Shown here piece by piece: positions 32,312-37,313 of a DNA stretch of 64,000 nt. A program made the position numbers and the translations under genes. Within the stretch, counting starts at the first letter, position 1. The number at the start of each line of letters is the position of its first letter. Source of the stretch: Sebaldella sp. S0638 (lineage in GTDB: Bacteria > Fusobacteriota > Fusobacteriia > Fusobacteriales > Leptotrichiaceae); assembly GCF_024158605.1 (NCBI RefSeq), contig NZ_JAMZGM010000014.1:1-64000 (forward strand), in the 5' to 3' direction. A model generated the notes under the pieces. That model did no database searches, was not told the origin of the DNA, and was given only the letters and a program-made list of their open reading frames with translations.

Positions 32312-33181
32312 TCACCCGCTATATTTAGCATTGAATTTCAAGGAAAGAACAAGTCCGGCTAAAAACAGCAGGATTCCTGTAATATAAACGAAGAAATTCC
32401 CGGAATACCCTGGAATCAGTTCAGGAACAGACCCGAGCATAAATCCCAAAACTGCATAATATGTAAAACTGTATGATTTTTTAAACAGAAAATCCATTAA
32501 TTTTGAAAACAATAAGGCACCTGCTGCAAGACCCAGACAAAGAGGAATCAGAATCAAAATATTATTGATAATTTCTCCGTGCATAGATTTTGAGACAAAA
32601 GGAAACAGAAAAATATATTTTATATCTGCAATCATTTGCAGAAAAATTCCGTATGCTCCTATAAGCATAAGAAGAACTGTTCCGCTGATCCCCGGAATTA
32701 CCAAGGGCCCTGCCATTATGACACCTGTAATAAATATATATAAGAAGTTCCTGAAATTCAGATAAAAATCTTCAGTTTCTACTTCCATATCACTGTTTCC
32801 TGCTAAAGAAAAAAATATAGAAACTGCAAATGCAATAAAAAACGGGATAAGGCAGAAAACAGAGAACCCGTTTTTATTAGCCTGCTTGAAAAGTCCCGGT
32901 ATGGTACCCAGAAAAAGTCCGCAGAGTGAAAACATCGTAGGTATTTCATAATGGGTAAACAGAAACTTTTGAACATTGCTGAATAAAACTATTCCAAGAC
33001 AGGCTCCGGAACCAACAACAGCAAGGAAAATAAAATTTTTCTTCGGATCTTTGAAAAAATTGCTTACAGAGTGTATGAGTTTTTCATAAAGTCCGAATAT
33101 AACAGCAAGAGAACCGCCGCTTATTCCCGGAAGTATGGCACCTATGCCAATAACTATTCCTTTTGTAAAATTAGAAAGCAT
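32312..33181 (-). CDS. popT: DUF368 undecaprenyl-phosphate translocase (PopT-like)
   Basis: A 289-aa membrane protein with about eight hydrophobic segments and the two DUF368 half-repeats: GIVIGIGAILPGISGGSLAV at the N-terminus and MAGPLVIPGISGTVLLM in the second half. DUF368 proteins flip undecaprenyl phosphate back across the membrane for reuse in peptidoglycan and other envelope polymers. GGAGG lies nine bases before the start. It is the third gene of the minus-strand run; a terminator lies between it and the ATPase, so expression may depend on read-through. Confidence 0.88.
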   Translation of the reverse strand: MLSNFTKGIVIGIGAILPGISGGSLAVIFGLYEKLIHSVSNFFKDPKKNFIFLAVVGSGACLGIVLFSNVQKFLFTHYEIPTMFSLCGLFLGTIPGLFKQANKNGFSVFCLIPFFIAFAVSIFFSLAGNSDMEVETEDFYLNFRNFLYIFITGVIMAGPLVIPGISGTVLLMLIGAYGIFLQMIADIKYIFLFPFVSKSMHGEIINNILILIPLCLGLAAGALLFSKLMDFLFKKSYSFTYYAVLGFMLGSVPELIPGYSGNFFVYITGILLFLAGLVLSLKFNAKYSG

Positions 33182-33263: not shown

Positions 33264-35960
33264 TTAATTCTCATCCTTAAATGAATTTAGTCTGAATAGT
33301 TTCAGTAATTCTACAATCACTATCGGCATGAAGGATAAAACCACAACAATCAGAGTATCTCTTCCTGACAGAGTAACTACATTGAATATATCCTGTAAAA
33401 ACGGAACAAATAATACTGCAAGCATAAGTACAAATGAACATAATACAGCATAAACCAGATATTTATTGTTAAATATTCCTGTTTTAAATATGGAATTTGT
33501 TTTTGATCTTATATTAAATACATGCACAAGCTGTGAAAGACTCAGAACAGCAAATGCCATAGTCTGCCCGAGGATAATATTGGAAGGATCCTCGTGTATA
33601 CCGATTCTGTATGCAATAAGTGTAAGTATACCAATCATGGTACCCTGATAACCAATTCTGTAGATCATACCTTTGGTAAAGATTCCCGTATTCGCCGGAA
33701 TAGGTGATCTTTTCATAATATTGTCCTCTGCGGGGTCAAAACTCAGAGCAAGCGCCGGAAGGCTGTCCGTGATCAGGTTTACCCACAAAATATGTATAGG
33801 GATTAACGGTTCCACCCAGTTTACAAGAGTGGCAAAGAATAATACGATAATTTCTCCGATATTGCTGGAAATAAGGAACTGTATAGCTTTTAGAATATTA
33901 TCGTAAATTCTTCTTCCTTCTTCTACAGCAGAAATAATAGTAGCAAAATTATCATCTGTAAGTATAATATCAGCAGCTTCTTTGGAAACATCAGTTCCCA
34001 CTATTCCCATGGCAGCACCTATATCAGCAGTTTTCAGAGCTGGTGCATCATTAACACCGTCACCTGTCATGGCTACGATATCTCCGTGTTTCTGCCACGC
34101 TTTAACTATTCTTACTTTATGCTCAGGCGAAACTCTGGCATATACTGAAATACTTTTTACTCTGTTTTCAAGTTCCTGATCTGTCATTTTCTCCACATCG
34201 GCACCTGTAATTGCCTCATCGTCATTTTCCAGAATACCTAAAGCACTGGCAATAGCAGAAGCAGTTATCTTATGGTCACCTGTGATCATAACCGTTTTTA
34301 TACCGGCAGTTTTACATTTTTCAATAGCAGATTTTACTTCCGGTCTTGGAGGATCTATCATTCCTACCATACCAATATATATTAGTTCAGTTTCCGCATT
34401 ATCTGCAGATTCGCTGCTTGTTTCCTTATAAGCTGTCCCTAATACTCTTAAAGCATTTTCAGCCATATCGGTATTGGCTTTCAGGATTTCAGCAGTATCT
34501 TTTTCTGTTAGTTCTCTTACTTCATTATTTATAAGTATTCTGTTACATCTTTTCAGAAGCTCGTCAACGGCACCTTTGGTATAAACTTTTACAGTGTTTG
34601 TTTTTGTATCTTTATTAACTGTAGACATAAGCTTTCTTTCAGAATCAAAAGGAATCTCGTCAATTCTCAGTTCACTGTTCTCAAGATCATCTTTATCAAG
34701 GGAAAACTTTAACCCTAAATCTACTAGTGCAGTCTCTGTAGGATCACCCGTCACCTTTGTTTTTTCATCCTCGGTAATTATCTTGGAATCATTGCAGAGA
34801 ACAATTGAAGTAATAAGAAGTCTCAATTCATCATCTAACGCACTGATATTTGCCACATCAACAGTATTATTATTAAAATATATTTTTTCCACAGTCATTT
34901 TATTTTGTGTAAGGGTACCGGTTTTATCAGAACACACCACAGTGGTACTTCCCAGCGTTTCTACACAAGGGAGTCTTTTTACAATGGCATGCTTTGTAAC
35001 CATTCTCTGTACACCAATAGCAAGTACAATGGTAGCAATAGCAGGAAGACCCTCGGGTATCGCAGCAACAGCAAGACTCACTGCTGACAGGAATAAGTGC
35101 ATAGGCTCTTTTCCATAACTGCTTCCTATAATAAACATAAGCACACAGATCACAATGGCGGCAATTCCTAGCATTTTTCCTAGTTTATCAAGTCTTTTCT
35201 GCAGAGGAGTCTGTGTAACTTCTGTAGAGTCCAATATAGCGGCTATTTTCCCTACTTCTGTATTCATTCCCGTTTCTACAACAATACCTTTTCCACGCCC
35301 GTATGAAACAAGACTGGCTGAAAATGCGAGGTTATCTCTGTCTCCAAGAGGAATGTCCGTTTCCTCTATAACAGCAGTTATTTTTTCCACAGGAACAGAT
35401 TCTCCTGTCAGCGAAGCTTCTTCTATTTTCAGATTAGCAGCTTCAAAAAGTCTCAGATCAGCAGGAATATAATCACCTGTATCGAGTATTACCACATCTC
35501 CGGGAACCAGTTCTTTTCCGGGAAGCATGAGTATCTGTCCGCCTCTTAATACTTTGGAAACAGGAGAACTGAGTTTTTTCAAGGCTTCAAGTGACTTCTC
35601 AGCTTTATTTTCCTGCAAAACACCTATAACAGCATTTACTATAACAATTAACAATATAATAAAAGAATCGCTTATTTTTCCCAGAAAATCAAGAACAGAC
35701 GTTACAGGCTCTTTACTTTCAAGAATACCTACCACTCCTGATATTACAGCTGCAAGTATCAAAATAATAATCATCGTATCTTTAAACTGAGCAAGAAATT
35801 TTTGAAGAAAAGTCTTTTTCTTTCCCTGCTTTAATTCATTATATCCGTAAGTTTCCACTTTTTCTGCAACCTGTGATTCTGTGAGACCTTCTGTAAGATT
35901 AGTATTCAGCAGATTTACAGTATCTTCAACGGAAAGATTATACCAGTTCTTTTTTTCCAT
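33264..35960 (-). CDS. Ca2+-translocating P-type ATPase (PII)
   Basis: A complete 898-aa P-type ATPase. It has an N-terminal actuator region with LTGES, the phosphorylated Asp345 in DKTGTLTQNKM, the nucleotide domain, MITGDH and MTGDGVNDAPALK. Membrane motifs match SERCA-type Ca2+ pumps: IPEGLPA in TM4, SSNIGE in TM5 and NLITDSLPA in TM6 keep all site II ligands. In TM8 a Gln occupies the place of the SERCA site I Glu (segment TMAFAVLSLSQ), as in pumps that carry one Ca2+ per cycle. It lies 18 bases after the AI-2E gene in one operon. Confidence 0.92.
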   Translation of the reverse strand: MEKKNWYNLSVEDTVNLLNTNLTEGLTESQVAEKVETYGYNELKQGKKKTFLQKFLAQFKDTMIIILILAAVISGVVGILESKEPVTSVLDFLGKISDSFIILLIVIVNAVIGVLQENKAEKSLEALKKLSSPVSKVLRGGQILMLPGKELVPGDVVILDTGDYIPADLRLFEAANLKIEEASLTGESVPVEKITAVIEETDIPLGDRDNLAFSASLVSYGRGKGIVVETGMNTEVGKIAAILDSTEVTQTPLQKRLDKLGKMLGIAAIVICVLMFIIGSSYGKEPMHLFLSAVSLAVAAIPEGLPAIATIVLAIGVQRMVTKHAIVKRLPCVETLGSTTVVCSDKTGTLTQNKMTVEKIYFNNNTVDVANISALDDELRLLITSIVLCNDSKIITEDEKTKVTGDPTETALVDLGLKFSLDKDDLENSELRIDEIPFDSERKLMSTVNKDTKTNTVKVYTKGAVDELLKRCNRILINNEVRELTEKDTAEILKANTDMAENALRVLGTAYKETSSESADNAETELIYIGMVGMIDPPRPEVKSAIEKCKTAGIKTVMITGDHKITASAIASALGILENDDEAITGADVEKMTDQELENRVKSISVYARVSPEHKVRIVKAWQKHGDIVAMTGDGVNDAPALKTADIGAAMGIVGTDVSKEAADIILTDDNFATIISAVEEGRRIYDNILKAIQFLISSNIGEIIVLFFATLVNWVEPLIPIHILWVNLITDSLPALALSFDPAEDNIMKRSPIPANTGIFTKGMIYRIGYQGTMIGILTLIAYRIGIHEDPSNIILGQTMAFAVLSLSQLVHVFNIRSKTNSIFKTGIFNNKYLVYAVLCSFVLMLAVLFVPFLQDIFNVVTLSGRDTLIVVVLSFMPIVIVELLKLFRLNSFKDEN

Positions 35961-35978: not shown

Positions 35979-37145
35979 TTATGCATTTGTATTATTTTCA
36001 TTTTCGCTTTTATTCTCAGTTTCAGTTTCGATTTTTTCTTTTTTTCCGAATATCCCTTTAAAAAATCCTTTTTCCAGATCTTCATGGAATACATTTTTCA
36101 ATATGATAACAACAGCAGGACCCATGATAATTCCAATAAAGCCAGCGAGTTTCAGTCCTGTGTACATTGATAAAAGAGTTATCAAAGGGTGTACGCCGAT
36201 ATTTTTACTGTATAATTTCGGCTCCAGCAGCTGTCTTACTGCAGTAACAATAACATATAAAATTAATAAAGCAACAGCCATTTTAAAATCTTTTACTATA
36301 AGGGATACAACTATCCATGGGATCATAAATGCCCCGGCGCCAAGTATAGGCAGGGCGTCTATTGCACATATAATAATGGCAAATGTAAGAGGATACTGTA
36401 CATTTAAGCCCATAAAGTGGAAAAGATTAAGCCCTATAAGCAATTCAAAAAAGCAAATAGTAATAAGCATAGCCTGTGCTTTCAGATAACCGCCTACTAC
36501 AGACAGAAGATCGTTTTTTAGTGTATATATTTTGTTCAGCCATGAAACAGGAAGCTGCTTTTCTACGAATAAAATTATATTCTGTTTATCAAGACTCATA
36601 AAAACAGTGGCTATAACAGTAACAAAAAAGTAAATAACAACATTTGGCAGTGAAGTGATAAACGACAGAACATTATTAAGCAGAACGCTTATTTTTGATG
36701 TTGCCATGGAAATAATGTCACTTACCGAGCCTTTCAGCTGATTTAATATTTGTTCCGGAATTTTATCCAGAATTATAGTTCCTCTGTTCATAAAGTTCAT
36801 GAAGTTATCTATCCAAAGCTTTATTTCCTGCGCATAAGTACTGATGTTAAATGAAAGACTGTATATCTCAAGTATCAGTTTCGTAACAATCAGGGAAATA
36901 AGACCTACTACAAATGCAAATACAATTAACAAAGCAATTGCGGTACTTATCTTTTTGGGCAGTTTCAGCTTTAAGTTCAAGAGTTTTGCTATTCTGGTAA
37001 CTACCATGGAAAAGAGAATAGCAAGTACAAAAGGCGAAAGAAATACTGCGATTTTGAAAGCTATGAATATAAGCAGAAAAACCAGCAATATACGTCCGAA
37101 GAATAATGCTTTTTTAAATAATGCACTTTTATAATAATTATACAT
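35979..37145 (-). CDS. AI-2E family (YtvI/PerM-type) membrane permease
   Basis: A 388-aa polytopic protein with about eight membrane segments and the family core: IDALPILGAGAFMIPW, followed by RQLLEPKLYSKNIGVHPLITLLSMYTG. The C-terminal 35 residues are a Glu/Lys/Asn tail. Members have been linked to AI-2 export, Na+/H+ exchange or unknown substrates, so the substrate is open. AAGGAG lies seven bases before the ATG. Upstream on the same strand lies a promoter plus a 135-base leader with a strong terminator, which suggests control by transcription attenuation. The Ca2+ ATPase follows. Confidence 0.85.
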   Translation of the reverse strand: MYNYYKSALFKKALFFGRILLVFLLIFIAFKIAVFLSPFVLAILFSMVVTRIAKLLNLKLKLPKKISTAIALLIVFAFVVGLISLIVTKLILEIYSLSFNISTYAQEIKLWIDNFMNFMNRGTIILDKIPEQILNQLKGSVSDIISMATSKISVLLNNVLSFITSLPNVVIYFFVTVIATVFMSLDKQNIILFVEKQLPVSWLNKIYTLKNDLLSVVGGYLKAQAMLITICFFELLIGLNLFHFMGLNVQYPLTFAIIICAIDALPILGAGAFMIPWIVVSLIVKDFKMAVALLILYVIVTAVRQLLEPKLYSKNIGVHPLITLLSMYTGLKLAGFIGIIMGPAVVIILKNVFHEDLEKGFFKGIFGKKEKIETETENKSENENNTNA

Positions 37146-37280
37146 ATATTACTCCTTATTTTATGGAATTTTGTAAAAAAAATGTGTATAGCGGCCTATA
37201 CACAAAACTTTTAATAAAGGGCCTGCCGAAAAGGCATATTGACACAAAAAAAAGTGCATAAAATTCCCCATTGTTTTATG
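37146..37280 (-). promoter_or_regulatory. Candidate RNA switch (attenuation leader) of the permease-Ca2+ ATPase operon
   Basis: Read on the minus strand. The 5' end CATAAAA (37280-37274) pairs with TTTTATG (37263-37257) around a G-rich loop (GGGG 37269-37266). TGCC/GGCA (37236-37233, 37227-37224) forms a second hairpin, and CCC follows (37221-37219). The terminator TGTGTATAG/CTATACACA (37204-37196, 37191-37183) with eight T ends 30 bases before the start codon. Two alternative pairings would break it: CATAAAAC (37280-37273) with GTTTTGTG (37208-37201), and GCAGGCC (37226-37220) with GGCCGC (37196-37191). It matches no riboswitch class I know. Confidence 0.5.
37175..37204 (-). terminator. Terminator inside the leader of the permease gene
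   Basis: A perfect nine-base-pair stem (37204-37196 with 37191-37183), loop GCCG, followed on the minus strand by eight T residues (37182-37175). It lies upstream of the coding start rather than after a gene, and the plus-strand neighbour points away, so it is an attenuator rather than a gene end. Confidence 0.8.
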
Positions 37281-37284
37281 ACTG

Positions 37285-37313
37285 ATAATACCATGTATTT
37301 GGCATAAAGTCAA
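37285..37313 (-). promoter_or_regulatory. Promoter of the permease-Ca2+ ATPase operon
   Basis: On the minus strand, TTGACT (37313-37308), a 17-base spacer and TATTAT (37290-37285). Transcription would begin near 37279, at the first hairpin of the leader. In the rest of the 368-base gap, a possible weak plus-strand promoter (TGTATA 37448-37453, TAAAAT 37471-37476) faces the 37514 gene. Confidence 0.7.

Follow-up and report, generated by a model that had tools for sequence, protein, structure and literature searches.

A compact leader in front of a permease and P-type ATPase operon in Sebaldella as a candidate derived member of the yybP-ykoY riboswitch lineage

In riboswitches of the yybP-ykoY family (RF00080), Mn2+ is bound between two loops, L3 and a sarcin-ricin-like L1, the latter docking through an A-minor contact, according to the accessible text of PMC6754395. 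Docking with Mn2+ has been reported to stabilise a switch helix, the 3' strand of which otherwise joins a terminator, and NusA has been described as acting on this helix too (accessible text of PMC11087558). In Streptococcus pneumoniae, mgtA, which encodes a P-type ATPase, is preceded by a yybP-ykoY riboswitch with a three-way junction that senses Mn2+ and Ca2+. This leader belongs, with those at loci L080, L081 and L087 and at Fusobacteriota loci, to the compact yybP-ykoY forms located before P-type ATPases (for mgtA, accessible text of PMC9495176 and PMC11434433). The literature on Fusobacterium and Sebaldella riboswitches, taken at the level of titles and the opening lines of abstracts and with preprints and most subscription journals outside its scope, yielded no report on the leader described here.

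This leader is encoded on the minus strand of a 64,000-nt stretch (the window) of contig NZ_JAMZGM010000014.1 from Sebaldella sp. S0638 (genome G000, 4.27 Mb), in front of the genes for a permease, a P-type ATPase and a DUF368-type protein (Table 1). It was compared with the corresponding loci of three congeners, namely G002, the most divergent one, and the close pair G001 and G003; the completeness of G001 and of G002 is below 90% each. The leader was found 5' of the permease gene in all four genomes, and the ATPase gene adjoins the permease gene in three of them (G000, G002 and G003), the G001 contig stopping after the permease. A search for related loci returned two loci, one of which was the G001 contig again, and the permease of locus L039 is 90% identical to that of the window. 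Against the NCBIfam models, the window ATPase scored 762.6 bits for TIGR01522 (PMR1-type; under the cut-off of 798.3), 705.5 for TIGR01116 (SERCA-type; over the cut-off of 703.4) and 548 for TIGR01517 (PMCA-type; over the cut-off of 507.05). Mn2+ is also carried by PMR1 pumps. By these models, a PMR1/SERCA-type ATPase gene, and so a putative Mn2+/Ca2+ homeostasis gene, stands in second place of the predicted operon behind the leader.

Table 1. Positions of the genes, the predicted signals and the proposed structural elements (window coordinates unless a contig is named)
Feature	Position	Strand	Remarks
Sigma-70-type promoter TTGACT-17-TATTAT, TG before -10	37285..37313	-	10/12 matches; predicted
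P1 5' strand CATAAAAC, proposed antiterminator helix	37273..37280	-	near predicted transcript start; 80-nt aptamer fold
P2 5' strand (T)GGGG and start of former L1 loop	37266..37270	-	GGGAAUU here; GGGAGUA in yybP-ykoY
Short ORF ATGCAC...TAA, 32 aa, through terminator	37161..37259	-	possible leader peptide; ATG at 37259
P3 hairpin GCAC-U8-GUGU	37242..37257	-	paired in 4/4 sequences; corresponds to first hairpin of G002, GCACUAACCGUGC
P4 hairpin UGCC-UUUUC-GGCA	37224..37236	-	at the place of the G002 L3 loop and P3.1
P2 3' strand CCCUU	37217..37221	-	present in 4/4 sequences
AUUAA between P2 and P1	37211..37215	-	4/4 sequences; unpaired in window fold
P1 3' strand GTTTTGTG	37201..37208	-	last four bases also foot of terminator 5' arm
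Intrinsic terminator TGTGTATAGGCCGCTATACACA-TTTTTTTT	37175..37204	-	9-bp stem, 4-nt loop, U8 tract
AI-2E family permease	35979..37145	-	PF01594; NCBIfam YtvI model; first gene after leader
P-type ATPase	33264..35960	-	best NCBIfam model PMR1-type Ca2+ ATPase TIGR01522
DUF368-type undecaprenyl-phosphate translocase-like protein	32312..33181	-	PF04018
Intact yybP-ykoY leader	G000:C48:11638-11727 (L137 239-328)	-	own terminator-like sequence; R3 76.1 bits, in R3 training set

A preliminary description of this DNA had placed a promoter, a leader and a strong terminator 5' of the permease gene, and this layout was confirmed in the sequence: the promoter is followed by a leader of about 130 nt, the terminator and then the permease gene, and both the promoter and the terminator stem are retained across the four congeneric genomes. 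The 168-nt stretch folds better than its shuffles (z -2.62; 2 of 200 as good). The 80-nt part 5' of the terminator folds no better than shuffles (z -0.76; 102 of 500 as good), and a simple count of terminators in the region was not above chance (3 found, 3.1 expected). From ATGCAC, the short ORF within the leader extends over 64 aa in both G001 and G003, where it continues into the permease gene in another frame.

An Rfam scan of the window gave only a tRNA at gathering score and no family over its cut-off at the leader, and RF00080, with a gathering threshold of 45 bits, was absent from the Rfam matches of the window, G002 and G003 leaders even at E 10. Five matches for the window and three for G003 at E ≤ 10 were all far under their cut-offs and were judged to be chance. 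Across the family, RF00080 gave matches at E ≤ 1 in 2 of 33 genomes, with 0 of 33 over the cut-off. A covariance model of the four congeneric leaders (R1) recovered its own training set in 98 Fusobacteriota genomes, at 61 to 104 bits, and seven weak matches (E 0.13 to 0.99) in the 94 genomes outside the genus, which were judged unrelated on inspection. A second model, R2, was made from the three compact forms of the leader (window, G001 and G003) and was applied to 398 genomes of the phylum of a Clostridia MAG, with three weak matches (E 0.01 to 0.06) that were likewise judged unrelated. No such leader was seen by eye 5' of 26 permease orthologues from other genera (L005-L030), and a DNA search of the own genome found no second copy, the best other match having 33.7 bits and E 0.05.

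The orthologous leader of G002 gives the key to its affiliation. A block model was derived from 29 Clostridia yybP-ykoY aptamers that are RF00080 matches (29 of 30 fetched loci, L086 being dropped as identical to L085; the source search had matches in 58 of 299 genomes). It scores four blocks, namely L1, each strand of L3 and the 3' GNGAGAC, as well as the pairing in P1 and P3, and positives left out of the training reached 52 to 65. The G002 leader scored 39.2 with this model, a value reached by 0 of 1000 shuffles (mean 4.1, sd 5.3, maximum 28.4), and its block spacings (32, 23, 18) fall within the ranges of the 29 training aptamers. Its L1, GGGAGUAA, agrees with the consensus GGGAGUA, and its L3, CCAACAACC, faces UGG and retains the invariable adenosine; the 3' side reads AUGAGAC. 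Because this place in L3 is occupied by ACA in X. oryzae and by UCA in L. lactis (accessible text of PMC6754395), the changed first base of the G002 L3 is within the known variation.

A covariance model of Fusobacteriota yybP-ykoY aptamers (R3) was built without the G002 leader. From 35 loci scanned, 33 aptamers were kept (L155 and L156 yielded no aptamer, and L099 and L158 refer to a single site), and 20 of these 33, of the short ATPase type and with fewer near-identical rows, were chosen for the training alignment A4. Seven pairs in A4 changed on both sides, which was matched by 2 of 500 shuffles, and the number of pair types was not above that of shuffles (174 of 500). In a positive control, R3 found 26 of the 29 Clostridia loci at E ≤ 1, at 18 to 58 bits, and missed L080, L081 and L090. 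It gave the G002 leader 20.8 bits, corresponding to E 0.014 in 75 kb and to 3.6e-5 in a 201-base stretch; the leader is the best R3 match of its genome, yet has E 0.58 genome-wide and falls short of E 0.01 in the search of 98 genomes. On the window leader, R3 gave no real match (6.2 bits in a truncated alignment). Block scores of the compact forms were 13.4 for the window (16 of 1000 shuffles as high), 17.5 for G003 (4 of 1000) and 0.7 for G001 (423 of 1000, which is chance).

The compact forms are connected to this lineage by alignment. When their cores were aligned to G002, 0 (G003), 0 (G001) and 2 (window) of 2000 shuffles did as well, with z of 7.1, 6.3 and 3.7, and alignment to the intact yybP-ykoY leader found elsewhere in the window's own genome (G000:C48) gave 0, 4 and 14 of 2000 shuffles, respectively. 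Common descent with yybP-ykoY members was thus found by alignment against shuffles. Against this stands the result of R2, which finds G002 only at E 0.87, although as its sole match besides its training set. Relative to G002, the compact forms have lost about 17 nt, that is, most of the L3 5' strand and P3.1. The L3 loop with its invariable adenosine, the UGG-type 3' strand and P3.1 are missing in the window, G001 and G003, which have a hairpin with a loop of 5-6 nt instead, and the L1 consensus, present in 20 of 20 rows of A4, has become GGGAAUU in the window and in G003 and GGGAACU in G001. Since the docking site of L1 and L3 is gone, the compact leader is not expected to sense Mn2+ by the established mechanism. 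We consider, with a probability of roughly 0.6, that the window leader is a compacted, derived member of the yybP-ykoY lineage that controls premature termination before the permease/ATPase/DUF368 operon. The claim of the preliminary description that the fold matches no known class therefore held only in part: no Rfam cut-off is reached, but the G002 orthologue is recognisable as yybP-ykoY and the window form aligns to it, and on these comparisons the leader does not look like a free-standing new class.

With the yybP-ykoY family, the window leader shares descent by alignment, the layout of promoter, leader and terminator, and a Ca2+-type P-type ATPase in the operon. The putative P1 would place its 3' strand within the terminator arm, which is the layout described for yybP-ykoY (accessible text of PMC11087558). 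In the three compact forms, unlike in that family, the core measures about 80 nt and contains a GGG/CCC helix and a hairpin of four pairs, and the first downstream gene encodes a permease. In the predicted 80-nt fold of the window and of G001, P1 (CATAAAAC/GTTTTGTG) encloses a junction of P2 (GGGG/CCC), P3 (GCAC/GUGU) and P4 (UGCC/GGCA). P1 can be drawn in all four leaders and is part of the minimum free energy structure of the aptamer in three of them; the unconstrained fold of G003 lacks it, and G002 folds differently inside P1. The eight pairs, one of them a wobble, that the preliminary description assigned to the two P1 strands stand as given. Helices as long as P1 occurred in 504 (window), 540, 2028 and 382 of 5000 shuffles for the four genomes taken singly, which is within chance, so the window sequence alone is no proof of a switch. 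P1 and the full terminator are mutually exclusive, and the fold energy favours the terminator by 6 to 11 kcal/mol in all four leaders; switches can still decide while transcription is under way.

Other pairings proposed in the preliminary description fared less well in the comparison. The alternative partner TTTTATG close to CATAAAAC is full-length in the window only, being replaced by CTCTATG in G001, TTCTATG in G003 and TAATTTG in G002. Pairing of GCAGGCC with the terminator loop is not upheld, as the loop varies among the congeners (GCCG, ACCGGATA, GCCAGATA and TGCAAATGTA). For GGGG and CCC, suggested to form a pseudoknot, the predicted folds give a nested helix that closes the junction, so that no pseudoknot is needed. 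The covariation in relatives by which the proposal was to be judged is absent among the four sequences: standard pairs make up 97.5% of the pair cells of their alignment, and 0 of 21 pairs show two-sided changes. In G002, the strand that pairs with the terminator foot is CAUGAG (with CUCGUG) and not CATAAAA, which is the homologous one; this was hence not counted as covariation.

Intact members of the family precede related ATPase genes in Fusobacteriota. In a block scan, 13 of 50 stretches upstream of ATPase genes, together with five RF00080 positives, scored 38.7 to 59.7, the next score being 24.3. At E ≤ 0.01, R3 identified leaders at 40 sites in 39 of 98 Fusobacteriota genomes, 20 of which had provided training sequences, and 39 of the 40 sites are located 5' of an ATPase match by their coordinates. 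In the same 98 genomes, RF00080 had matches at E ≤ 1 in nine, with none over the cut-off and none at an R3 site. R3 thus shows yybP-ykoY leaders of Ca2+-type ATPase genes in 39 of the 98 genomes, and all 40 sites lie outside the matches of the Rfam model at E ≤ 1; the RF00080 cut-off is missed by intact Fusobacteriota members too (0 of 98 genomes over it). Many of the ATPase leaders at L159-L169, L129, L130, L132, L140-L142, L144, L147-L150 and L153 seemingly lack the first hairpin (P2).

Within the genus, an intact copy before a paralogous ATPase gene was found in two of the four congeners, G000 and G003 (L154 634-723), and at E ≤ 0.01 R3 found none in G001 and G002, both less than 90% complete, nor any leader in the other 29 genomes of the family. 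The intact G000:C48 leader and the window leader have in common the yybP-ykoY family and a P-type ATPase downstream, the two ATPases being paralogous. They differ in that the G000:C48 leader keeps L1 (AGGGAGUAA), L3 (UCAACAUGC) and UGG, which the window leader does not, and in that the ATPase gene follows directly at G000:C48, whereas the permease gene intervenes in the window.

Despite the loss of the metal loops, the compact core has been conserved. The window and G003 differ at 6 of 77 aptamer positions; for the four-fold sites in the permease gene the count is 59 of 149, and for the sequence upstream of the promoter it is 35 of 108. Between the window and G001, the corresponding values are 7 of 77, 59 of 138 and 35 of 109. 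The contrast is weaker between G001 and G003 (5 of 78, 22 of 148 and 14 of 109). The much lower number of differences in the aptamer than at four-fold sites indicates that the core itself is constrained, beyond the promoter and the terminator. The leader is conserved although its metal loops were lost, and it may now answer to something else; judged from these comparisons, it probably is a derived P1/terminator attenuator that still works without the known Mn2+ pocket. As RNA polymerase transcribes the leader, formation of P1 around the P2/P3/P4 junction would sequester the terminator foot and allow the operon to be read; with P1 unformed, the terminator would form. Without docking of L1 and L3, the junction might respond to another or less specific signal, such as a different ion or factors, NusA among them, that act on P1, and the competition between P1 and the terminator would still set read-through into the operon. 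A switch-type leader with conflicting P1 and terminator before ion-transport genes, as put forward in the preliminary description, is accordingly retained as the best reading, and the ion signal suggested there fits the ancestry of the leader.

What the conserved core now does can be read in several ways, and the confidences we attach to the rival readings overlap each other and that of the preferred one. Tentatively, the compact leader could be a new aptamer class born from a Mn2+ riboswitch, in which the metal loops were dropped, a small junction was built whose UAU, CAAUA, GG and AUUAA are conserved and unpaired, and another ligand acts through the old P1/terminator switch; Ca2+ would be one such ligand, and another would be an envelope signal, which would suit the permease and the undecaprenyl-phosphate translocase-like gene. 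Somewhat more doubtful is a vestigial riboswitch, with the sensing core decayed to a constitutive attenuator that lets a fixed fraction of polymerases pass and receives no signal. Both metal loops are indeed lost, the terminator is favoured by fold energy, and the intact leader before the paralogous ATPase in the same genome means that the window copy could be spared; however, when the window is compared with G003, differences are about five times rarer in the compact core than at four-fold sites, a contrast not expected from simple decay. It appears unlikely that the leader still senses Mn2+/Ca2+ through a rearranged pocket, in which a new L3 would be provided, for instance, by the UCAAUA that immediately precedes P4 in the window and in G003. 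The block scan did place L3-like blocks there (TCAATA and CTGGC in G003, TCAATA and CAGGC in the window, at the scores given above), and GGGA is kept, including the base that corresponds to the docking A of L1. On the other hand, the AGUA of L1 is lost, G001 has CCAATA and scores at chance, and only 3 of 5 flanking P3 pairs in G003 and 2 of 5 in the window can form in that register.

Two further readings were weighed. Leader-peptide control, in which a ribosome on the ORF from ATGCAC (37259) would run into the terminator and set antitermination, is improbable. No stop codon interrupts the ORF across the terminator in the window, in G001 or in G003, a purine-rich AAAGGGAA lies a few bases 5' of its ATG in G001 and G003, and all five substitutions between these two over 126 bases are at third codon positions, four of them synonymous, so that a translated ORF could also explain the constraint. 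This pattern rests, however, on five substitutions and on a frame that could have been picked from three; moreover, the frames of the window and of G001/G003 are offset by a one-base difference, the G002 sequence is TTGCACTAA, and no run of codons for a single amino acid was seen. Least probable by far is an unrelated new riboswitch class that resembles yybP-ykoY, by way of G002, through chance. It would account for the window leader reaching no Rfam cut-off and having no R3 match, and for the GGG/CCC helix and AUUAA, which are common to all four leaders and are not seen in yybP-ykoY alignments, but the results that the block model, the covariance model and the alignments gave for G002 and the compact forms speak against chance, as does the shared ATPase context. 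Should the compacted yybP-ykoY derivative still regulate its operon, it would be a natural case of a metal riboswitch that lost its pocket with the switch still under selection; the intact form in the same genome and the intermediate in a congener would then offer a test bed for the change or loss of a riboswitch ligand.

The comparison also touches on SSRC10 (RF02617), listed as a Streptococcus sRNA, which sits between SPyM3_0439 and the putative calcium transporter gene SPyM3_0440 (accessible text of PMC3675131). SSRC10 is the best Rfam match of the G002 leader, at 23 bits and E 0.019, far under its cut-off of 56 bits, and the window leader gives no SSRC10 match. The SSRC10 consensus carries the yybP-ykoY blocks with a score of 53.1, as high as in 0 of 500 shuffles (best 20.5), which suggests that RF02617 probably represents a terminated leader from a Mn2+/Ca2+ riboswitch. 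A search guided by SSRC10 through 96 genomes of the order gave matches at E ≤ 1 in 11 of them and none over the cut-off, and the three sites inspected looked like terminators or like nothing; the SSRC10 string was not found in viral contigs. Among the loci inspected, one Clostridia locus (L088) carries a second yybP-ykoY-like site at 376-462 on the minus strand, with 53.8 bits for R3. At L094 (genome G087), two yybP-ykoY leaders, at 1509-1607 and 2634-2727, lie about 1 kb apart, each before the gene of a membrane protein, and these proteins presumably resemble a sodium/calcium exchanger.
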